From: a virus
Length of the DNA stretch: 64,000 nt
Reading direction: 5' to 3' (one strand)
Virus record (IMG/VR): IMGVR_UViG_3300042453_001086
Coordinates: 1-64,000 of that record
The notes beneath the pieces were generated by a model. It saw nothing but the letters and a program-made list of their open reading frames with translations. It made no database searches and was not told the origin of the DNA. The position numbers were made by a program, and so were the translations under genes. The number at the start of each line of letters is the position of its first letter. The first letter of the stretch is position 1. Of the stretch, positions 11,608 through 18,058 are shown piece after piece.

Positions 11608-11770
11608 TAGGTTTCTCCTTAGTTTTTTAGGTTAAAGAGCGTTCCTTCAGTCGGCTTTTGCGTTCGCTATATAGCGAATGAACGATCCGTTCCGAGTCGG
11701 CTTACTTCCGTCCCATAGGGATGAACGTATTTTATATATGGTATCCTTTTTGTAACTTTAGATACCAAAC
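11608..11770 (-). other. Intergenic segment with palindrome and repeated octamer
   Basis: This 163-base gap between the tRNA cluster and the DUF4278-like gene holds a perfect 16-base palindrome, TTCGCTATATAGCGAA (11663-11678). GTCGGCTT occurs once on each side of it. No open frame with a ribosome-binding site is visible. It may be an operator, an RNA-processing site or a structured leader. Confidence 0.4.
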
Positions 11771-11843
11771 ACTCTCTGTAGGATTCGAACCTACGACACC
11801 CTGATCCGTAGTCAAGTGCTCTAATCCACTGAGCTAAGAGAGT
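11771..11843 (-). tRNA. tRNA-Arg (ACG)
   Basis: Complete cloverleaf: seven-pair acceptor ACTCTCT/AGAGAGT, GTTCGAATC T-loop region and anticodon loop CTACGGA. No encoded CCA. Last tRNA of the cluster. Confidence 0.95.
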
Positions 11844-11848
11844 AAGGT

Positions 11849-11919
11849 TCTGAGGGTAGGATTCGAACCCACGAATGGCGGGACCAAAACCCGCTGCCTT
11901 ACCGCTTGGCGACCTCAGA
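11849..11919 (-). tRNA. tRNA-Gln (TTG)
   Basis: Acceptor TCTGAGG/CCTCAGA; anticodon stem GCGGG/CCCGC with loop TTTTGGT, giving anticodon TTG. The T-loop is standard. Confidence 0.93.
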
Positions 11920-11920
11920 A

Positions 11921-11991
11921 GCCCTCAACTAGATTCGAACTAGCGACCTACTCATTACTAGTGAGTTGCTCTACCACTGAGCTATAAGGGC
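11921..11991 (-). tRNA. tRNA-Thr (AGT), unusual A34
   Basis: Acceptor GCCCTTA/TGAGGGC; perfect anticodon stem ACTCA/TGAGT with loop CTAGTAA, giving AGT. In bacteria A34 is normally confined to tRNA-Arg(ACG), so this anticodon is unusual. Other positions look normal. Confidence 0.9.
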
Positions 11992-11993
11992 GG

Positions 11994-12064
11994 GGTGACG
12001 TATGAGAATCGAACCCATCTAGGTGGTTCCACAAACCACTGCCTTACCTCTAGGCTAACGTCAC
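11994..12064 (-). tRNA. tRNA-His (GTG)
   Basis: Acceptor GTGACGT/ACGTCAC and discriminator C73 as expected for histidine. Anticodon stem GTGGT/ACCAC, loop TTGTGGA. The base before the acceptor is T and not the G-1 usual for tRNA-His. Confidence 0.92.
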
Positions 12065-12066
12065 AA

Positions 12067-12137
12067 GGCAGTGGGTAGAATCAAACTACCGACATGGAGG
12101 GTATGAATCTCCTGTTCTATCACTGAACTACACTGCC
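12067..12137 (-). tRNA. tRNA with CAT anticodon (elongator Met or Ile2)
   Basis: Acceptor GGCAGTG/CACTGCC; anticodon loop TTCATAC. One A-C mismatch closes the anticodon stem. The T-loop is TTTGATT (T at position 56) and the D-loop AGTGATA (A at position 19), a paired departure from the usual G19-C56. Whether CAT is modified to lysidine (Ile) cannot be told. Confidence 0.85.
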
Positions 12138-12142
12138 AAAGT

Positions 12143-12213
12143 GGAACCGACAAGATTTGAACTTGTGACCGCTCGGTTATCAGCCGAGTGCTCTACCGCT
12201 GAGCTACGATTCC
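12143..12213 (-). tRNA. tRNA-Ile (GAT)
   Basis: Anticodon stem CTCGG/CCGAG with loop CTGATAA; regular D and T arms. Confidence 0.94.
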
Positions 12214-12218
12214 ATAGT

Positions 12219-12289
12219 ATTCCTAACGGGATTCGAACCCGTGCTGCCACCTTGAAAGGGTGGTGACCTAACCGCTAGTCGATAGGAAC
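12219..12289 (-). tRNA. tRNA-Glu (TTC)
   Basis: Acceptor GTTCCTA/TAGGAAT (one G-T pair); anticodon stem CCACC/GGTGG with loop CTTTCAA. Confidence 0.94.
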
Positions 12290-12338
12290 TTGATGCTACA
12301 ACCGCCAAGGAGGGACACTCCACAGGCAGCGTAGCAAC
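12290..12338 (-). ncRNA. Long hairpin between tRNA-Asp and tRNA-Glu
   Basis: The 49-base spacer folds end to end on the minus strand: outer stem TGCTAC/GTAGCA, middle TGCC/GGCG and a GGAG/CTCC tip. It could be a processing signal or a small stable RNA like those in the T4 tRNA cluster. Confidence 0.4.
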
Positions 12339-12409
12339 GACTCTAACGGGATTTGAACCCGTGATACTACCGTGACAGGGTAGCGTGATAACCGCTTCAC
12401 TATAGAGTC
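12339..12409 (-). tRNA. tRNA-Asp (GTC)
   Basis: Acceptor GACTCTA/TAGAGTC; anticodon stem CTACC/GGTAG, loop CTGTCAC. Confidence 0.94.
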
Positions 12410-12413
12410 AAAT

Positions 12414-12485
12414 GGGTCTGGTCGGGCTCGAACCGACGACTTACAGGTTAAAAGCCCGCTACTCTACCAACTGAGTTACAGACCC
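12414..12485 (-). tRNA. tRNA-Lys (TTT)
   Basis: Acceptor GGGTCTG/CAGACCC; anticodon loop CTTTTAA; regular D and T arms. Confidence 0.94.
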
Positions 12486-12554
12486 AAGAGATTAGATTGT
12501 CAAGGTGCTGGTCGGGGTGGTTCCCCTTCCGTCGATGGATGTATCATAGCAAAA

Positions 12555-12580
12555 GGGGGGTGGTTTTGCAACCGCCCCCC
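12555..12580 (-). terminator. Strong hairpin terminator inside tRNA region
   Basis: An 11-pair stem (one mismatch), GGGGGGTGGTT with AACCGCCCCCC and a TTGC loop, is followed on the minus strand by TTTT. It lies between the small gene at 12608 and tRNA-Lys, so it may end or attenuate transcription within the tRNA cluster. Confidence 0.7.
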
Positions 12581-12607
12581 TGATAAATCTTGCTTATGTA
12601 TCGATGG

Positions 12608-12694
12608 TTACATATTAGCAAGCAGGAGGGATTTGGCGATATGCTGGCGGCAATCGCTAATCTTAATCTCCATTTGCTTGTTGAAGTTAACCAT
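12608..12694 (-). CDS. Possible 28-residue peptide between late promoter and terminator
   Basis: The frame starts MVNFNKQMEIKISDCRQHIA and ends LLANM. A perfect late-promoter box (12715-12722) is just upstream and a strong terminator just downstream, so a short late RNA is expected here. There is no clear ribosome-binding site, so the RNA could instead be non-coding. Confidence 0.35.
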   Translation of the reverse strand: MVNFNKQMEIKISDCRQHIAKSLLLANM

Positions 12695-12714
12695 GATGTT
12701 TACCAATGTGTGTT

Positions 12715-12722
12715 TATTTATA
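12715..12722 (-). promoter_or_regulatory. Late promoter inside the tRNA cluster
   Basis: Perfect TATAAATA on the minus strand, just past the 3' end of tRNA-Tyr. Confidence 0.55.
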
Positions 12723-12723
12723 T

Positions 12724-12804
12724 GGGCAGGGAGGGATTTGAACCCCCGAAAGCATAGCTGTCTGATTTACAGTCAGATTCCTTTAACCACTCGGAAACCT
12801 ACCC
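12724..12804 (-). tRNA. tRNA-Tyr (GTA)
   Basis: 81 bases with a long variable arm as in bacterial tRNA-Tyr; anticodon stem TCTGA/TCAGA with loop CTGTAAA. Confidence 0.94.
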
Positions 12805-12808
12805 GAAC

Positions 12809-12880
12809 TCCCCCACCTGGACTCGAACCAGGAACATCAAAGTTAACAGCTTTGCGCTCTGCCAATTGAGCTATAGGGGA
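12809..12880 (-). tRNA. tRNA-Asn (GTT)
   Basis: Anticodon stem CAAAG/CTTTG with loop CTGTTAA; acceptor TCCCCTA/TGGGGGA with one G-T wobble pair. Confidence 0.94.
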
Positions 12881-12886
12881 ATGAAA

Positions 12887-13057
12887 TCAGGATTGTTTAC
12901 AATCCATCATATATTCTACTGTGTTTGCAATGTCATTCATGGCATCACGCAGATGTGGTCGTTGACCACTCTCTTGTCTAACGATTGGTCTGTGGTCGTC
13001 AGTCAGAGACCAACGCCATTGATTCATATTAGCGCAATACCACAGATTAATTTTCAT
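12887..13057 (-). CDS. Small hypothetical protein within tRNA cluster (56 aa)
   Basis: This starts MKINLWYCANMNQWRWSLTD; the second half, RQESGQRPHLRDAMNDIANT, reads like a folded conserved protein. The ATG at 13057 overlaps the end of the upstream gene by 11 bases, which supports that start over in-frame ATGs farther upstream. Trp- and Cys-rich; function unknown. It lies between tRNA-Asn and tRNA-Gly. Confidence 0.65.
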   Translation of the reverse strand: MKINLWYCANMNQWRWSLTDDHRPIVRQESGQRPHLRDAMNDIANTVEYMMDCKQS

Positions 13058-13217
13058 GTTTGAAATGTTCCAATCGTATCCAGTTGAGAAGCGCATGTAT
13101 TTCAGATGATGAATGATGTGGGGTGCCGAGATAATACTCGGTTGTTTCTGCTTCGGAAGCATACATTTCAAGTGCTCTAATAGCAACTTCTCTGTCTCTC
13201 TGTGAAATAAGTGACAT
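13047..13217 (-). CDS. Small hypothetical protein within tRNA cluster (56 aa)
   Basis: This starts MSLISQRDREVAIRALEMYA and is mostly helical and charged. GAGGA lies eight bases before the ATG, a good ribosome-binding site. It follows tRNA-Gly and is coupled by overlap to the next gene. Function unknown. Confidence 0.65.
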   Translation of the reverse strand: MSLISQRDREVAIRALEMYASEAETTEYYLGTPHHSSSEIHALLNWIRLEHFKHEN

Positions 13218-13242
13218 GTTATTTATCCTCTAGTTGGAGGAA

Positions 13243-13313
13243 GCGGATTAGGGGATTCGAACCCCTGACGAACTGCTTGGAAGGCAGCCATTCTACCACT
13301 GAATTAAATCCGC
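13243..13313 (-). tRNA. tRNA-Gly (TCC)
   Basis: Acceptor GCGGATT/AATCCGC; anticodon stem GCTGC/GCAGT with loop CTTCCAA. Confidence 0.94.
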
Positions 13314-13417
13314 AGGTGCTCTCCACTACACTATATATCTGCTACGATAGCGTGTAGTTTTGAGCGAAACCCAACATATTGGGCTGCAATCTCCAGTTTT
13401 TCATGCTTTTGATTGCC
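13314..13417 (-). other. Spacer with two hairpins, no convincing gene
   Basis: The minus strand folds CCCAA/TTGGG (loop TATG) and CTACAC/GTGTAG. A 20-codon frame (MKNWRLQPN...) has no ribosome-binding site. Likely tRNA-precursor spacer. Confidence 0.4.
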
Positions 13418-13487
13418 TTTGCGTGTCGGACTTGAACCAACAACCTCCCCACCATCGGGGGCGCTCTACCGATTGAGCTAACGCTGA
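13418..13487 (-). pseudogene. Degenerate tRNA-Pro-like gene (TGG)
   Basis: D arm and T arm are intact, but the acceptor TCAGCGT/ACGCAAA has two internal mismatches. In either folding of the anticodon arm position 33 is not T (A or G). The anticodon would be TGG. A fully normal tRNA-Pro(TGG) exists at 16093-16165, preceded by a related spacer, so this looks like a decayed duplicate. Confidence 0.65.
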
Positions 13488-13617
13488 TAGAGGCTTGACC
13501 GCGTAAGCAGTCTGTTTGAGCATATCATGCCCGTGCCAATCTCGGACTAGGCTAACTTTGTACTACCTGGCCAGATAGTTGGCGTCTTTCTAGGCTATCT
13601 GCCTAACGACTACCAAT
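13488..13617 (-). ncRNA. Structured spacer RNA, copy 1
   Basis: Immediately 3' of tRNA-Leu, the minus strand forms an outer TTGG/CCAA, a middle GTC/GAC and an inner TAGGC/GCCTA stem, followed by other hairpins (CTATCTGG with CCAGGTAG; GACTG with CGGTC). The first 29 bases match copy 2 (16271-16299) except for one position. The pairing partner of that position has changed in step (GTC/GAC here, CTC/GAG there). T4 encodes stable RNAs of unknown function in its tRNA cluster, a possible analogy. Confidence 0.5.
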
Positions 13618-13698
13618 GTCGCTGAGAGGACTTGAACCTCCACGAGTTACCTCACTGGAACCTAAACCCAGCGCGTCTACCAATTCCGCCACAGCGAC
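13618..13698 (-). tRNA. tRNA-Leu (TAG)
   Basis: 81 bases with a long variable arm; acceptor GTCGCTG/CAGCGAC; anticodon loop TTTAGGT giving TAG. Confidence 0.94.
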
Positions 13699-13703
13699 GT
13701 GGG

Positions 13704-13776
13704 GGCGGGAGTGGGATTTGAACCCACGACCTGCGGCTTATGAGACCGCTGAACTACCAGACTGTTCCATCCCGCG
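13704..13776 (-). tRNA. Initiator tRNA-fMet (CAT)
   Basis: The acceptor is CGCGGGA with TCCCGCC, so position 1 (C) cannot pair with position 72 (C), the hallmark of bacterial initiator tRNAs. The D-arm sequence GGAACAGTCTGGTAGTTC also resembles bacterial fMet. Anticodon loop CTCATAA. It is the first gene behind the cluster promoter. Confidence 0.9.
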
Positions 13777-13787
13777 TTAACCATCAT

Positions 13788-13816
13788 ATTATACCCGAGA
13801 GGGTGGGGGATGTCAA
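13788..13816 (-). promoter_or_regulatory. Consensus promoter of main tRNA cluster
   Basis: TTGACA (13811-13816), 17 bases, TATAAT (13788-13793) on the minus strand. The -35 box lies in the loop of a GGGGG/CCCCC hairpin (13805-13821). Confidence 0.85.
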
Positions 13817-13835
13817 CCCCCCGTTGCTCGGCTCG

Positions 13836-13924
13836 CCACTTGCCCTTTGACTGGAGGCAAGAAACCAGGCGGGAGAGAGTCCCATCCGCACCACTTGTTT
13901 TTTAATGGGAAAACAAGAAACCAG
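13836..13924. repeat. Two tandem hairpin elements in non-coding DNA
   Basis: Copies at 13836-13868 and 13891-13924 share CCACTTG...CAAGAAACCAG with a 55-base period. The stems differ in sequence but both pair (CTTGCC/GGCAAG in one, CTTGTTTT/AAAACAAG in the other), so structure is kept while sequence changes. The stretch 13817-14016 has no credible gene. Strand of expression is unknown. Confidence 0.5.
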
Positions 13925-14016
13925 AAGGGGGTTCACCCGACCAGGGCGCTTTTTATGTCATCCCGAGACAAGTAGGGTCATTGACTCCACCAGTGCTGTT
14001 ATAGACCATCCGTGTC

Positions 14017-14325
14017 TTATTTATTTGCAGGTACAAATGAGGTTTTATTGTCCCATTTGAATGGAGTGTTATTCATTTCATATTTTACAGAACCATTTGA
14101 TTGAGATTCCTTGGTGATAGAAATGAGACCTTGTGCTGAAGTATTACCTTCTTTAGCAGCTGCCTCAATACGCTCAGCAAACATAGTGTTATCAAGTTCA
14201 ATCAGTGCTTTAGAAATAGCAGAGATTACATAGACACTTTCTTTTTCAGAGAAAGAAAGTGCTGTGCGTAGAGCACATTCTGCCTTTTCTATATGATACT
14301 TAACTCTATCATTCATCTTCTTCAT
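14017..14325 (-). CDS. Hypothetical protein (102 aa)
   Basis: The start at 14325 (MKKMNDRVKYHIEKAECALR) has GGAGGAG three to four bases upstream and overlaps the end of the upstream gene. The longer frame lacks this. The protein is helical, with SEKESVYVISAISKALIELD in the middle and a polar tail ending SFVPANK. No recognised family. Confidence 0.6.
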   Translation of the reverse strand: MKKMNDRVKYHIEKAECALRTALSFSEKESVYVISAISKALIELDNTMFAERIEAAAKEGNTSAQGLISITKESQSNGSVKYEMNNTPFKWDNKTSFVPANK

Positions 14326-14578
14326 CGTCTCCTCCTTTAATGTAGCATGGAACTGTGTCTGGGTCAAGCCATTTGGTGTATTCAAAATCCTCAATCGCTG
14401 TCATAAACTGCATTTCATTATCACAAAGATACATGTCACGGTAGCGACCAGTATACGAATCTACTTTTTGAATACGGCAATCAGGTTTACCATTGATCTC
14501 AAGTGTACCAACCTGTACATATCTATAAGGAAAACGATCAAGGATTGTCTTCACGCGGCTTTGGTTTGTTACACTCAT
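14309..14578 (-). CDS. Hypothetical protein (89 aa)
   Basis: This starts MSVTNQSRVKTILDRFPYRY; mixed alpha/beta with Asp-rich C-terminus (GGDDEEDE). Its N-terminus overlaps the zinc-finger gene by 41 bases in another frame. A promoter-like TTGACA-18-TAAAAT lies just upstream (14609-14638). Function unknown. Confidence 0.6.
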   Translation of the reverse strand: MSVTNQSRVKTILDRFPYRYVQVGTLEINGKPDCRIQKVDSYTGRYRDMYLCDNEMQFMTAIEDFEYTKWLDPDTVPCYIKGGDDEEDE

Positions 14579-14753
14579 TACAGTAGTAGGAGAATCCTGT
14601 GCGAAAGTATTTTACTACTTGGTAGTGGGTGCTGTCAAGGGGTTGCTCGGTGTGGCACTTGGAACAGGTTCTAGTCCCACCACCAGCAGAGGTTTGTGAG
14701 CGTGTTGAGGAACTGCTCATGGTAGACAGTGCGGCTTGGATTAGGTTTACCAT
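14538..14753 (-). CDS. C4 zinc-finger protein (71 aa or shorter)
   Basis: The C-terminal two thirds carry two CxxC knuckles, TCSKCHTEQPLDSTHY and SYYCNECNKPK, about 28 residues apart. This is the arrangement seen in small phage C4 zinc-finger proteins related to HNH accessory domains. The start is uncertain (14753 or 14720; neither has a good ribosome-binding site). It overlaps genes on both sides. A similar protein lies at 61589-61810 next to the terminase. Confidence 0.6.
   Translation of the reverse strand: MVNLIQAALSTMSSSSTRSQTSAGGGTRTCSKCHTEQPLDSTHYQVVKYFRTGFSYYCNECNKPKPREDNP
14609..14638 (-). promoter_or_regulatory. Promoter inside zinc-finger gene
   Basis: TTGACA (14633-14638), 18 bases, TAAAAT (14609-14614), read toward the 89-residue gene at 14309-14578. 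Confidence 0.55.
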
Positions 14754-15243
14754 CTTTCATGTCTTGGAGATACTGTATTATACCACGAACTACTGGGGTG
14801 TCTTGGAAGTATTCGTGCATTCGATAACAATCAAACTTTTCATTGTATTGAATGAAGTCATGTAATGGATCCATGTTACGACGGTAAGCATAGATGAATA
14901 CATCTTCATCTTTGATACCATGTTTGTTGATGATATCTAACGGATAAAACTTTTCTCCATCTTCATCTCTTTCTTCTTTTGTGTCAAACTTAAAGTGAAG
15001 ACCATCGTAATATTTGTTGTGTAACTCTTCATCTGGTGCTACACGAACTCTTTCATTCTCTCTCATAATGTATTCCATACGACCTTTGGCATCTTCGTTA
15101 GTCAAACGGAATACAATGTTGCCGATGTAGTAATGTACAGGACCGCCATAAAGATGGGATGATTCTCTTCTTCTGAATGACAGATGAGTAATCTCAAATC
15201 CACGGTCTTCATCTTCAGTTTCAACTAATCCTTGTGTCAACAT
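14671..15243 (-). CDS. Conserved-looking hypothetical protein (190 aa)
   Basis: A soluble acidic protein starting MLTQGLVETEDEDRG and ending in TNLCWWWD. It has a beta-rich first half (GGPVHYYIGNIVFRLTNED) and a DKEERDEDGE linker. I start it at the ATG at 15243; the frame extends two codons farther to a TTG. It follows the 71-residue gene by coupling. I believe relatives occur in other cyanomyoviruses, but no function is known to me. Confidence 0.7.
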   Translation of the reverse strand: MLTQGLVETEDEDRGFEITHLSFRRRESSHLYGGPVHYYIGNIVFRLTNEDAKGRMEYIMRENERVRVAPDEELHNKYYDGLHFKFDTKEERDEDGEKFYPLDIINKHGIKDEDVFIYAYRRNMDPLHDFIQYNEKFDCYRMHEYFQDTPVVRGIIQYLQDMKDGKPNPSRTVYHEQFLNTLTNLCWWWD

Positions 15244-15245
15244 AA

Positions 15246-15461
15246 TCAATAACGCTCAGGGATTTGATCGTAATCTAATGGATGGTCTTGTTTCTTTTCT
15301 TGCTTACGAAACTTTTTGAGGTCTTCAAACAAGTGTTTGATTTTTTTATATGCCTCATTAGCATCTTGTTTACCTGCCATTTCAGCAGCAATAATATACT
15401 CTACTTTTTTACCGAAGTCAAATAGATGATACTCAAAATCTGTTTGATGTTGATATGACAT
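15246..15461 (-). CDS. Hypothetical helical protein (71 aa)
   Basis: Start MSYQHQTDFEYHLF at 15461 with AGGAGG five bases upstream; the longer frame would run into tRNA-Ile and is rejected. The product is helical and lysine-rich in the C-terminal half (YKKIKHLFEDLKKFRKQEKK). It is cotranscribed with the tRNAs upstream. Confidence 0.65.
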   Translation of the reverse strand: MSYQHQTDFEYHLFDFGKKVEYIIAAEMAGKQDANEAYKKIKHLFEDLKKFRKQEKKQDHPLDYDQIPERY

Positions 15462-15486
15462 TTGACCTCCTTTGTTTTTAGTATAT

Positions 15487-15578
15487 AGGGGTGGAGGGAG
15501 TCGAACCCCCAACCGCGCACTAATCTGGTGCATACAGAAGGTATAAGCTTCTCGCTCTGCCAATTGAGCTACACCCCC
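15487..15578 (-). tRNA. tRNA-Ile (TAT) with extended variable arm
   Basis: Acceptor GGGGGTG/CACCCCT (one G-T), anticodon stem AGAAG/CTTCT with loop CTTATAC giving TAT. Between the anticodon and T stems lie 25 bases with an internal GCAC/GTGC hairpin, as in class II tRNAs, which is not expected for isoleucine. Confidence 0.8.
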
Positions 15579-15582
15579 TTAT

Positions 15583-15654
15583 GGAGAATAGCGGACTCGA
15601 ACCGCTGACATTCGCCTTGCAAAGGCGCTACTCTACCAACTGAGTTAATTCCCC
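15583..15654 (-). tRNA. tRNA-Ala (TGC)
   Basis: Acceptor GGGGAAT/ATTCTCC; anticodon loop TTTGCAA. Its 5' 27 bases overlap the 3' end of the antitoxin-like gene. Confidence 0.93.
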
Positions 15655-15801
15655 CTGTATTCGGGCATAGTTTTCATATGGCATCAGAAGAACATCCCCA
15701 CCATTGGAAGTGGTAATAATAAAACTTTCTTTGTTTAGCATTACATTGTCCATGATTTCATCAAAGTCGTGACAAAAAGTTTCTTCTGTAATCGTTTTCA
15801 T
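15628..15801 (-). CDS. Orphan Phd/YefM-like antitoxin
   Basis: The 57-residue chain MKTITEETFCHDFDEIMDNV continues to SFIITTSNGGDVLLMPYENY. It matches the Phd/YefM antitoxin fold pattern: an initial MKTIT strand, a helix, then the 'FIIT..G..V.LMPYEEY' strand-helix. GGAG lies eight bases upstream of the ATG, and the start overlaps the glutaredoxin stop (ATGA). The 3' end runs into tRNA-Ala. No toxin gene of the Doc, RelE or YoeB kind is adjacent. Confidence 0.7.
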   Translation of the reverse strand: MKTITEETFCHDFDEIMDNVMLNKESFIITTSNGGDVLLMPYENYARIQGELTQLVE

Positions 15802-16070
15802 ACCATACACTCCATGTCTTTTTCTTCTTGTAGGCAACCAATACTGGTTAGATATTCAATAGTTTCAGTGCAACCTCCTACACGATGACCATCAAGGGTA
15901 ACCTGAGGGAATGTTGAACCTTCACCAAACTCATTATAGAATGCTTCTCTGTCAAAGTCAACATCCAGTTTGTACTGTGTGTATTTGACAGTAAAACTAT
16001 CAAGGATAACCTTGAGTTTACGACAATATTCACAGTTATCTCGTGTGTAAATAACCAGTTGCGAAATCAT
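15798..16070 (-). CDS. grx: Second glutaredoxin
   Basis: This 90-residue glutaredoxin has Cys13-Glu-Tyr-Cys16 at the active site and the cis-Pro segment STFPQVTLDGHRVGG. It differs clearly from the CPSC enzyme at 3852-4106, so two redox proteins may serve different partners (for example ribonucleotide reductase and another). It lies between tRNA-Pro and the antitoxin-like gene. Confidence 0.9.
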   Translation of the reverse strand: MISQLVIYTRDNCEYCRKLKVILDSFTVKYTQYKLDVDFDREAFYNEFGEGSTFPQVTLDGHRVGGCTETIEYLTSIGCLQEEKDMECMV

Positions 16071-16092
16071 TAATCTCTCCTAAAAGAAGAAT

Positions 16093-16165
16093 CGGGATGA
16101 CAGGATTCGAACCTGCGACATCTCGCTCCCAAAGCGAGTGCTCTACCAAACTGAGCTACATCCCG
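16093..16165 (-). tRNA. tRNA-Pro (TGG)
   Basis: Perfect acceptor CGGGATG/CATCCCG with the C1-G72 pair typical of proline; anticodon stem CTCGC/GCGAG, loop TTTGGGA. Confidence 0.95.
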
Positions 16166-16301
16166 TGATGGAGTAAGCGTAATATACCTCAAGGGCATAA
16201 CAGAGGCTTACCCTCTATCGTATCACAGCAGACAAGTTTATCTCCAGGCGCTTGTGATAAGTTGGTCTCCTTCTAGGCTATCTGCCTAACGAGTACCAAG
16301 C
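16166..16301 (-). ncRNA. Structured spacer RNA, copy 2
   Basis: Immediately 3' of tRNA-Ser(TGA) and before tRNA-Pro. It begins with the same three-part hairpin as copy 1 (TTGG/CCAA, CTC/GAG, TAGGC/GCCTA), then TATCAC/GTGATA and AGAGG/CCTCT stems. No convincing open frame is present. Confidence 0.5.
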
Positions 16302-16385
16302 GGAAGTGGTAGGATTTGAACCCACGATGGCTTTCACCATGCTTGTTTTCAAGACAAGTGCCTTAAACCACTCGGCCACACTTCC
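16302..16385 (-). tRNA. tRNA-Ser (TGA)
   Basis: 84 bases with long variable arm; acceptor GGAAGTG/CACTTCC; anticodon stem CTTGT/ACAAG, loop CTTGAAA. Confidence 0.95.
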
Positions 16386-16402
16386 ATTTGTTTGACCTCC
16401 AT

Positions 16403-16438
16403 ATTATATAGGAGGTCTGGGGGGTCTGTCAACCCCCC
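16403..16438 (-). promoter_or_regulatory. Fused terminator and promoter
   Basis: A perfect GGGGGGT/ACCCCCC hairpin (16419-16438) follows the SLH gene, and its loop holds the TTGACA (16427-16432) of a promoter with an 18-base spacer and TATAAT (16403-16408). It would serve tRNA-Ser(TGA) and the genes downstream of it. Confidence 0.75.
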
Positions 16439-16445
16439 GTGGTCA

Positions 16446-17300
16446 TCAGAACTTGATGCCCAGACCCGTGGTGAACACAGGAGAGTAAGAACCCGTACCA
16501 ACTTTCTCGGTAGGGAACTTCAGATCAGCAAAACCAATCAGGGAGTTGGTGATGCGACCTTCCAAACCAAGAGCAAGCACAGCAGTGCCAGTGCCTACAG
16601 CAGACTGAGAGTTTGCTTCAACACCGTTGACGAAAGGAACTTGGTAACCAGCAGCGGCATAGATGTTAGCGGCGCTTACACCTGCCTTACGGGCGATGCT
16701 CCAGTCATAGGAGAGCATAGCACCACCAGCAGCACCGATGTTGCTATCAGGACCAGCAACAGCATTGATGTAAGGGCGAACCGATACAGCATTCTGGTTG
16801 CTGAAAGTCTTCACAGCATAGCGAGCTTGGAGAGTACCACCAGAGATGGTGCTGTTGGCAGTCTTACCACCACCGTCAACGCCTTGCTTATTCAGCAGGA
16901 CGCCAAGACCAACGTAGTTACCTACGCCTTGTGCCTTGCGAGCAGCAGCGACCTCAAGGGCGCTCACGCGGGTGTTGGTAGCAGCGATCTCTTTAGCAAA
17001 CTGAGCGCGTAGAGCGGCAGCCAGAGCAGCGTCAGCGGCGCTCTGATACTCGCTGATACGGTCAAGGCAAGCGTTGGTGAGAGCGGCGAGCTCAGCACGG
17101 GAAGCGGGTTGACCAGGCTCAAAAGTGCCATTGGGGTAACCAGCAACACAACCGTAGCGAGAGATCAGGTTAGAGATAGCCTGATACGACCAATCAGTAG
17201 GTTGCACATCTTTCAGTTGAGTCACACTGGTGACTTGTGCCATGGCAGGAGCAGCAATAGAAGCAGCAGCAACGCCAGCAGCAATAAACGAACGAATCAT
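16446..17300 (-). CDS. SLH-domain outer-membrane (porin-like) protein
   Basis: A 284-residue exported protein. Residues 1-21 are a signal peptide (MIRSFIAAGVAAASIAAPAMA, cut before Gln). Residues about 24-80 form one S-layer-homology domain (VQPTDWSYQAISNLISRYGC, then GYPNGTFEPGQPASRAELA). Residues about 85-118 are an Ala-rich coiled coil, and the remainder is Gly-rich beta structure ending in Phe (GLGIKF), as in outer-membrane barrels. This is the architecture of cyanobacterial SomA/SomB porins, but about half their length. Composition is visibly GC-rich and host-like. No obvious ribosome-binding site. A role in altering the infected cell's surface is inference. Confidence 0.85.
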   Translation of the reverse strand: MIRSFIAAGVAAASIAAPAMAQVTSVTQLKDVQPTDWSYQAISNLISRYGCVAGYPNGTFEPGQPASRAELAALTNACLDRISEYQSAADAALAAALRAQFAKEIAATNTRVSALEVAAARKAQGVGNYVGLGVLLNKQGVDGGGKTANSTISGGTLQARYAVKTFSNQNAVSVRPYINAVAGPDSNIGAAGGAMLSYDWSIARKAGVSAANIYAAAGYQVPFVNGVEANSQSAVGTGTAVLALGLEGRITNSLIGFADLKFPTEKVGTGSYSPVFTTGLGIKF

Positions 17301-17346
17301 AATAGTTTCTTAAGATTTAAACGACATGTCATGCCCATAGGGCAAC

Positions 17347-17434
17347 GGAAGTGGTTGGATTTGAACCAACGGATGCCCATAAAGACATCGGCGGTTTAGC
17401 AAACCGCTGCATTAAGCCGCTCTGCCACACTTCC
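17347..17434 (-). tRNA. tRNA-Ser (GCT)
   Basis: 88 bases with long variable arm; anticodon stem GCGGT/ACCGC, loop TTGCTAA. Its 5' base coincides with the last base of the stop codon of the 85-residue gene. Confidence 0.95.
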
Positions 17435-17691
17435 TAGCGGATTTCAAAGTCCAGTTTTCTGGGTATTCTCTTAGTATAACCTGCTACAGGAGGATTGTCA
17501 ACCCTTTTCTCTTTCGGTTTACCGACTCCATCAACAGCAGTAATGTGCGACAAGTCATTGCCACTGATAATAGGCATACCACTTCTATCTAACCTCAGAA
17601 GGGTATGATTATCGCAGCCACATGACTTGCTTTTGTTTGGTTGATATACTTCTAACTCTACGCCACATGCGTTACATCTGATCTTTGCCAT
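17434..17691 (-). CDS. Small zinc-ribbon hypothetical protein (85 aa)
   Basis: Starts MAKIRCNACGVELEVYQPNK with CNAC at 6-9 and a CGC at about 24-26, a short zinc-ribbon-like arrangement. The rest, including ISGNDLSHITAVDGVGKPK and a basic tail, is not diagnostic. A promoter for the downstream tRNA-Ser lies inside its 3' end. Overlaps the upstream gene by 20 bases. Confidence 0.65.
   Translation of the reverse strand: MAKIRCNACGVELEVYQPNKSKSCGCDNHTLLRLDRSGMPIISGNDLSHITAVDGVGKPKEKRVDNPPVAGYTKRIPRKLDFEIR
17473..17501 (-). promoter_or_regulatory. Consensus promoter for tRNA-Ser(GCT)/SLH gene
   Basis: TTGACA (17496-17501), 17 bases, TATACT (17473-17478), embedded in the end of the 85-residue coding region. 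Confidence 0.75.
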
Positions 17692-17902
17692 TTTTTTCTT
17701 TTAACCACTCTGCCATTTCTTTTTGCATTTTTTTAGATTCTCTATCAAGTTGTTGCTTCATATTTCTTGCCATGTTCCACCGAATAAAGTTGATATGCAT
17801 TAACTTTATTCTTAAGTTAATGTACTCTGGTACATTTGGATCCTGCCAGATGATATACACCAGAGCACAGATTAGTATTAAAGAAATATAGTATGTATTC
17901 AT
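17672..17902 (-). CDS. Small membrane-anchored protein (76 aa)
   Basis: MNTYYISLILICALVYIIWQ is an N-terminal membrane helix. A basic, helical cytoplasmic part follows (NMKQQLDRESKKMQKEMAEW). Located between tRNA-Val and the zinc-ribbon gene. Function unknown. Confidence 0.6.
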   Translation of the reverse strand: MNTYYISLILICALVYIIWQDPNVPEYINLRIKLMHINFIRWNMARNMKQQLDRESKKMQKEMAEWLKEKNGKDQM

Positions 17903-17912
17903 AGTTTATATG

Positions 17913-17982
17913 GGCGATACTGGAATCGAACCAGTGACAGCTTGCTTGTAAGGCAAGAGCTCTACCGCTGAGCTAATCGCCC
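17913..17982 (-). tRNA. tRNA-Val (TAC)
   Basis: Acceptor GGGCGAT/ATCGCCC; anticodon stem CTTGC/GCAAG, loop CTTACAA. Confidence 0.95.
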
Positions 17983-17986
17983 TGGC

Positions 17987-18058
17987 GCTTCAGGTTGGAT
18001 TCGAACCAACGGCTAACCGCTTAGAAGGCGGATACTCTGTCCCCTGAGTTACTGAAGC
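17987..18058 (-). tRNA. tRNA-Arg (TCT)
   Basis: Acceptor GCTTCAG/CTGAAGC; anticodon stem TCCGC/GCGGT with loop CTTCTAA. Confidence 0.94.

Follow-up and report, generated by a model that had tools for sequence, protein, structure and literature searches.

A 38-nt hairpin RNA family recurring at tRNA 3' ends and in other RNAs of cyanophages, with a possible role as a decoy of host RNA-targeting factors

Two spacers and their common hairpin

Two spacers in the tRNA cluster of this virus begin with the same small hairpin, which raises the question of whether it is a real RNA, how it came to stand there twice, and what it could be doing. The window, that is, the whole stretch of DNA analysed, covers 64 kb of a 189,882-base virus record. 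ARAGORN predicts 22 tRNA genes in it, on the minus strand, with the cluster spanning 11769-18058, and only two of the 22 bear the hairpin, here called A. The cyanophage RNA families known from Rfam near tRNAs of the window are wcaG, PhotoRC-II and the glutamine riboswitch. Inside the cluster there is also an ORF of 69 aa (15628-15837, minus strand) that resembles the Phd/YefM antitoxin (Pfam E 1.9e-5, under the curated cut-off), with no toxin gene recognised next to it. The features of the two spacers and of the tRNAs around them are as follows.

13617-13698, minus strand: tRNA-Leu(UAG), upstream of copy 1 of A
13579-13616, minus strand: hairpin A, copy 1, UUGGUAGUCGUUAGGCAGAUAGCCUAGAAAGACGCCAA (cmsearch 65.1 bits; fold z -4.4)
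13531-13578, minus strand: segment X, CUAUCUGG...CUAGUCCGAGAUUGGCACGG, which recurs ahead of the permuted abiF-like motif
13486-13526, minus strand: circularly permuted abiF-like motif with facing strands AUGCUCAAAC and AAGCCUCU
13417-13487, minus strand: degenerate tRNA or tRNA-like RNA after spacer 1 (ARAGORN His-ATG)
16301-16385, minus strand: tRNA-Ser(UGA), upstream of copy 2 of A
16262-16299, minus strand: hairpin A, copy 2, UUGGUACUCGUUAGGCAGAUAGCCUAGAAGGAGACCAA (cmsearch 63.3 bits; fold z -4.2)
16221-16259, minus strand: element D, UAUCACA-[GCGCCUGGAGAUAAACUUGUCUGC]-UGUGAUA, in 4 distinct contexts
16167-16219, minus strand: element B, GAUAGAG[7-bp helix]...CCAUC, 1 nt before tRNA-Pro
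16092-16165, minus strand: tRNA-Pro(UGG), after spacer 2

Copy 1 of A stands directly 3' of the discriminator base of tRNA-Leu, and copy 2 comes after tRNA-Ser(UGA). The initial annotation had described a nearly identical 29-base hairpin at both spacer starts; the hairpin is indeed there, on the minus strand, but the repeated unit is 38 nt long, with 34 of the 38 bases identical. Two of the four differences make up the change of a GTC/GAC to a CTC/GAG pair, which had rightly been read as compensatory, and the rest lie in the 3' bulge and at a U-G/U-A pair. None of 200 shuffles folded as well as the 38-mer of copy 1, and one of 200 as well as that of copy 2, and the whole spacers (129 and 134 nt) beat their shuffles modestly (z -1.8 and -2.8).

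It had also been proposed that an RNA and a tRNA-Pro gene were anciently duplicated as one block, both spacers leading to tRNA-Pro. Spacer 2 does so, but the gene after spacer 1 was called His(atg) by ARAGORN, and its score of 39.4 bits in the Rfam search makes it the weakest tRNA of the cluster. Read by hand, its loop GATGGTG gives UGG with A33, and its outer acceptor bases are unpaired; it is possibly a tRNA-like RNA instead of a working tRNA. Its identity to the true tRNA-Pro is 62%, against 61% to tRNA-Thr and to one tRNA-Met, while the true tRNA-Pro is nearer to Val and Ala (74%) than to this gene. A sequence similar to the degenerate tRNA also occurs in locus L299. Alignment of the tails after A (91 and 96 nt) scores no higher than expected by chance; 117 of 2000 shuffled pairs scored at least as high. 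With tails that cannot be aligned beyond chance, and downstream tRNAs that are not sisters, only the 38-nt hairpin is common to the two spacers, and the block duplication was rejected. The sequence AAGCCTCT, held to be shared, does occur in both tails but belongs to different elements, being the internal loop of the abiF-like motif behind copy 1 and a partly paired strand of element B behind copy 2.

Hairpin A as an RNA family and its settings

Hairpin A is a new structured RNA family, unnamed so far. It is a 38-nt hairpin of three covarying stems, the fixed parts of which are a lone G, an AAR bulge opposite that G, and a loop C-NNAYA-G on a 5-bp stem. In 48 rows, partly chosen for pairing, 97.9% of the cells are paired and 9 of the 14 pairs have changed on both sides; the corresponding controls gave 78% and 6.4 pairs for shuffles and at most 47% and 5 pairs for slid partners. 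Because all three stems covary and the placement is strand-specific, the earlier suggestion of a real structured RNA is strongly supported. Loss of pairing in further copies had been named as the result that would speak against it, and compensated stem changes were found instead.

The pattern of inner stem and loop matched 109 IMG/VR stretches, and the stem-free and loop-free patterns at least 120 viral stretches each. Among the matches listed for the stem-free pattern, 32 of the 42 distinct contexts with a stem other than the common one pair at all five of five positions; of the ten that are not fully paired, L150 abuts a tRNA, and nine, with no tRNA nearby, look like chance. In our set of 150 distinct contexts, restricted beforehand to NNAYA loops, the loop is NNAUA in 143 and NNACA in 7, and the loop-free scan, among the matches listed, gave NNAYA with few exceptions (TCATT, TTTCT and CTAAG, once each). 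The 150-context set excludes copies lying within 15 bases of where a stretch starts or too close to where it ends, copies whose loop is not NNAYA or whose stem pairs at fewer than 5/5 positions, the loci from bacteria (L241-L253), and any further occurrence of one and the same 67-nt context.

Rfam at gathering score holds no family for A or for element B in the stretches searched, and none on 13300-16500 at E up to 10. Judged by eye against known motifs, A was also considered as a hammerhead, twister or HDV-like RNA, none of which has support in Rfam; an attC-like DNA site, likewise read by eye, is opposed by the strand polarity and the varying stems, and a programmed translational bypass in the leader copies by the position of A upstream of the start codon. 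Literature on cyanophage tRNA clusters with noncoding or structured RNA, in the parts accessible and with most subscription journals outside our coverage, contained no description of A; manA and wcaG are described in cyanophages in the accessible part of an earlier survey (PMC2864571).

As for its settings, a same-strand tRNA ends at most 8 nt before A in 75 of the 150 contexts, an opposite-strand tRNA in none. A starts at offset 0 in 48 of these 75 tRNA-linked copies, and CCA is absent just before it in 73. A same-strand tRNA comes immediately after A in 14 contexts. The other contexts comprise a TTCCCC-type noncoding region (18), a conserved mRNA leader (13), a GUAAGUCCC stem (6), the anticodon arm of tRNA-like RNAs (6), the inside of element B (3), and places elsewhere (29). 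Since A follows 15 tRNA species, counted by anticodon, and sits in non-tRNA RNAs as well, the moving unit is the hairpin.

Five of the 29 loci classed as elsewhere (L205, L217, L219, L223 and L226) hold phage-encoded permuted tmRNAs according to Rfam; A lies shortly before the tmRNA tag frame in the three of them that were printed (L205, L223, L226), and in L215 likewise by sequence. Where A serves as an anticodon arm, all six contexts carry the loop CAGAUAG with A at position 33, and the U33 of canonical tRNAs is absent from all six. The fixed parts of A resemble those of a tRNA anticodon arm, namely G26, the 27-43 stem, the 7-nt loop and A44/A45, with U33 absent. Another recurring tRNA-like element, CTSTGGTAGTCTATTGGTAAGGAC...GGTTCGATTCCTAG, was observed in loci L004, L005, L007 and L514, in some of which ARAGORN calls it Leu(caa) or unknown. 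The conserved leader CGCAAGTAAGTCGCGGAACGGAGCGTTCATCC stands before a small ORF in L235-L240 and in 429 cyanophage records, and the tip of its first hairpin varies; the leader that bears A in S-B05 has other tips, for example a UUCG-type loop, in the five other phages read. A podovirus region upstream of an apparent capsid gene (L531, L534-L535, L537, L540) is a mosaic of small structured motifs, of which TTCCCG..CGGG, GGCACCTCAGAGTCGGACC and CGTTCATC..GACG differ among related podoviruses.

Carriers and companion elements

Whole records with A number 10 of 18 (one or two copies each, the weakest extra match, E 0.5, being taken as chance), and 11 of 19 in a second set (one copy each); A is absent from the other 8 of the 18. 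Carriers nearly always have a single copy. The GenBank phages with A are Synechococcus phages only, namely S-SZBM1, DSL-LC02, S-EIVl, DSL-LC03 and S-B05, two matches in Vibrio phage nt-1 (E 6) having been rejected as 17-nt stretches of a coding gene. At least four unrelated lineages contain carriers: Kyanoviridae, S-EIVl-like (S-EIVl itself and relatives, with a primase 36% identical in L026), S-CBWM1-like (L021, portal 61%) and T7-like S-CBP1-like (L103, portal 94%). The closest named relatives of all four infect Synechococcus. No copy of A was detected in any of eight isolates (S-CREM1, S-CBP1, DSL-LC07, S-SRP01, S-CBP3, S-CBWM1, S-CBP4 and S-LBS1).

Scanning the genomes of 84,980 bacterial and archaeal species with an exact pattern yielded no match, and a second such scan yielded 13. 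Twelve of these do not have all the stems and resemble chance matches; the thirteenth, L244, is a contig of cyanophage type that had been binned with a Saprospiraceae assembly. At the patterns used, A is thus without a genuine bacterial copy, although diverged copies would escape exact patterns.

Both spacers of the window hold further elements beside A. Segment X occurs in 7 distinct contexts among the loci collected, the window included. The permuted abiF-like motif behind it was recognised from the facing strands of abiF RNA, closed by a stem, as read from S-SZBM1 and S-SRM01; the same strands are present at 13486-13526 in permuted order, with an inner stem GACUGC/GCGGUC and a short outer stem GAU/AUC. 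The permuted form recurs in six other cyanophage-type contexts (L034, L050, L081, L115, L147 and L299), and its inner stem is compensated among them, AGAUUGC/GCAAUC standing in place of GACUGC/GUGGUC. A broader abiF-type pattern gave 62 contexts, most of them resembling coding sequence, which were set aside. The Rfam family of abiF RNA, RF03085, has no match in the window at gathering score, on 13300-16500 at E up to 10, or in the whole record. S-SZBM1 and S-SRM01 carry true abiF RNA within their tRNA clusters, and a solitary one is annotated in the tRNA cluster of S-CREM1, according to the accessible part of its description (PMC9964418).

In spacer 2, element D has A at most 160 nt upstream in all four of its contexts and shows a compensated change of the outer stem in L213. 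Element B is a separate structured RNA family, unnamed, that adjoins tRNA 5' ends: all seven of its positions are paired in 66 of 88 pattern matches, the pattern itself fixing at most two of them, and a tRNA starts 0-4 nt after 31 of the 70 accepted members. A forms the inner hairpin of B in three contexts. Besides the window copy (16167-16219), B was observed in L005, L006 and L045 and in many IMG/VR contigs, with an inner hairpin that varies and can be A. Finally, several other spacer modules recur after A behind different tRNAs, among them module F behind Thr, Ser, Ile and Leu tRNAs and module E behind Leu, Asp, Thr and Val tRNAs.

Possible function and its alternatives

We favour the reading that A is a displayed RNA ligand with an action in trans, in all likelihood as a decoy or mimic of an antitoxin directed against a host RNA-targeting toxin or nuclease, over processing of tRNA trailers, a protein site acting in cis, and a passive portable hairpin, and would give it a probability of roughly 0.4. 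A loop that stays fixed while the stems vary implies a partner that recognises it. That genomes hold one or two copies, on carriers that are dissimilar but likely abundant and stable, and that unrelated viruses of the same hosts do so, points to action in trans on a host factor. Moreover, A resembles an anticodon arm without U33, serves as one, and accompanies abiF RNA, which together favour a decoy or antitoxin mimic, and we also count the want of a genuine bacterial copy for this reading. Against it we count the many phages of the same hosts that do without A (8 of 8 isolates, 8 of 18 records), the fact that pattern scans placed nothing resembling A in toxin or CRISPR loci of bacteria, that a small protein-sharing scan yielded no partner protein, and the abutment on tRNA ends, which fits RNA processing equally well.

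The scenario would run as follows. Picocyanophages would mount A, as a self-contained RNA ligand, on stable transcripts, and in the present virus it would arise as the 3' trailer behind both tRNA-Leu and tRNA-Ser; tRNA processing would then free the neighbouring tRNAs, and A would come to occupy an RNA-binding factor of the host, the likeliest candidates being an RNase toxin and an RNA-guided or anticodon-targeting defence nuclease. We infer that A is transcribed, released and bound in this way, and infer the identity of the target likewise.

Several known systems offer a measure for this proposal. Phage PhiTE is said to carry a pseudo-ToxI, an RNA with which it neutralises a toxin of its host in trans; the likeness lies in the proposed trans mode, whereas A is not known as a ToxI-type repeat and no host original of it was found. 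RNA anti-CRISPRs (Racr) are reportedly solitary small RNAs in phage genomes that copy host CRISPR repeats, and A, for which a like mode is proposed, is also a solitary small hairpin RNA in phage genomes; unlike them, it has, with the patterns used, no genuine match among 84,980 genomes of bacteria and archaea. The abiF RNA is an antitoxin RNA that, in C. difficile, binds to a HEPN toxin and neutralises it, as stated in the accessible part of its report (PMC12373285). Like A, it is a small folded RNA that phages carry among their tRNAs, and in the stretches read no neighbouring gene is annotated as a toxin; the two are found together, abiF RNA clustering with A or B in S-SZBM1 and S-SRM01 and its permuted form lying in spacer 1. 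A differs from it in loop, internal loop and fold, and no bacterial antitoxin locus with A is known.

The first alternative, which we consider unlikely, is that A is a processing element of the tRNA 3' trailer that marks or makes the tRNA 3' end, be it as an RNase Z or RNase E signal, an exonuclease stop or a self-cleaving RNA. The 48 of 75 tRNA-linked copies at offset 0, and the 73 of 75 without a preceding CCA, are what such an element should look like. Theta ribozymes, HDV-like phage RNAs, offer a precedent, for they cut at their own 5' edge, which abuts tRNA 3' ends, according to the accessible part of their description (PMC10879173). A shares this placement of the 5' edge but, judged by folds and covariation, is a single hairpin, and it often does not stand at a tRNA; no HDV-type Rfam match was obtained on 13300-16500 at E up to 10. 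Trailer hairpins of other kinds also bear on the matter. A 6-bp stem begins at offsets 0, 1 and 2 behind 27%, 29% and 28% of A-less tRNAs, against 3-9% at offsets 8-39, in a sample of 837 distinct tRNAs with the next tRNA at least 35 nt away, whose loci were mostly fetched for A or B and are thus non-random. The tRNA 3' end looks like a general hairpin slot; in the window cluster and among 1351 distinct tRNAs of the collected loci, hairpins at this end were observed to be common with or without A. Such an excess is in keeping with trailer processing, yet these other hairpins lack the loop of A, so the loop needs a separate reason. Furthermore, by the 8-nt limit half of the contexts lie off tRNA ends, including mRNA leaders and tmRNAs in which no such end is made, and only 2 of the 22 tRNAs of the window bear A.

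After it, and likewise improbable in our estimate, ranks a cis site at which a phage or host protein would stabilise or regulate the carrier transcript, as a nuclease shield or as a translational operator in a leader. Protein sites typically combine a constant loop and internal loop with stems that vary, and 13 contexts do lie in leaders near a start codon. However, the carriers share little, only one or two copies occur per genome, and the leader position bears tips other than A in the five other phages read.

The weaker chance, in our view quite small, is that A is a functionless portable hairpin dropped by recombination into places that tolerate hairpins. Trailers, leader tips and the inner stem of B do tolerate varied hairpins, and since trailers and the leader accept other hairpins, A occupies slots that are open to them too; but its loop and internal loop stay constant while the stems change with compensation, and it has not multiplied within genomes. 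A DNA-level element such as a recombination or attachment site, to which an inverted repeat adjoining tRNA genes might point, is very improbable in view of the G-U pairs, the asymmetric internal loop, the 75:0 strand polarity and the one or two copies per genome.

Should A be a decoy as we favour, the gaps in phage tRNA clusters would become a readable catalogue of RNA-based counter-defences, each conserved loop would point to an RNA-targeting system, yet to be discovered, in hosts that are abundant primary producers, and the old question of the stable non-tRNA RNAs in phage tRNA clusters would gain a direct test. Tentatively, and rating it as doubtful, we would extend this to a pool of exchangeable RNA cassettes (A, B, D, others, abiF and permuted abiF) that picocyanobacterial viruses may share as a counter-defence kit, mounted on tRNA trailers, tmRNAs, leaders and tRNA-like scaffolds; every cassette would block a single RNA-targeting toxin or nuclease of the host. 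The stable RNAs in the tRNA clusters of T4 and T5, long without an explanation, could belong to the same category. T4 RNAs C and D and the stable RNAs of T5 are annotated, as A is found, beside phage tRNAs; as a sign of kinship, the analogy with RNAs C and D drawn in the initial annotation fails, the A model detecting nothing in the T4 tRNA region (68000-76000). Across T4 and T5 it gave no convincing match, the best (E 0.18) falling on the tRNA-fMet of T5, and abiF gave none. Even under the rival explanations, A constitutes a new RNA family, found in four phage lineages on tRNA tails, in tmRNAs and in leaders of mRNAs, and hairpins in tRNA 3' trailers are a general feature that deserves explanation.

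The protein-sharing scan, too small to point to a partner, compared the frames of S-EIVl with four genomes that bear A (S-B05, DSL-LC03, S-SZBM1 and this phage) and with two that lack it; two S-EIVl frames matched DSL-LC03, S-SZBM1 and this phage, and neither of these two matched S-B05, S-RIM8 or S-SSM5.
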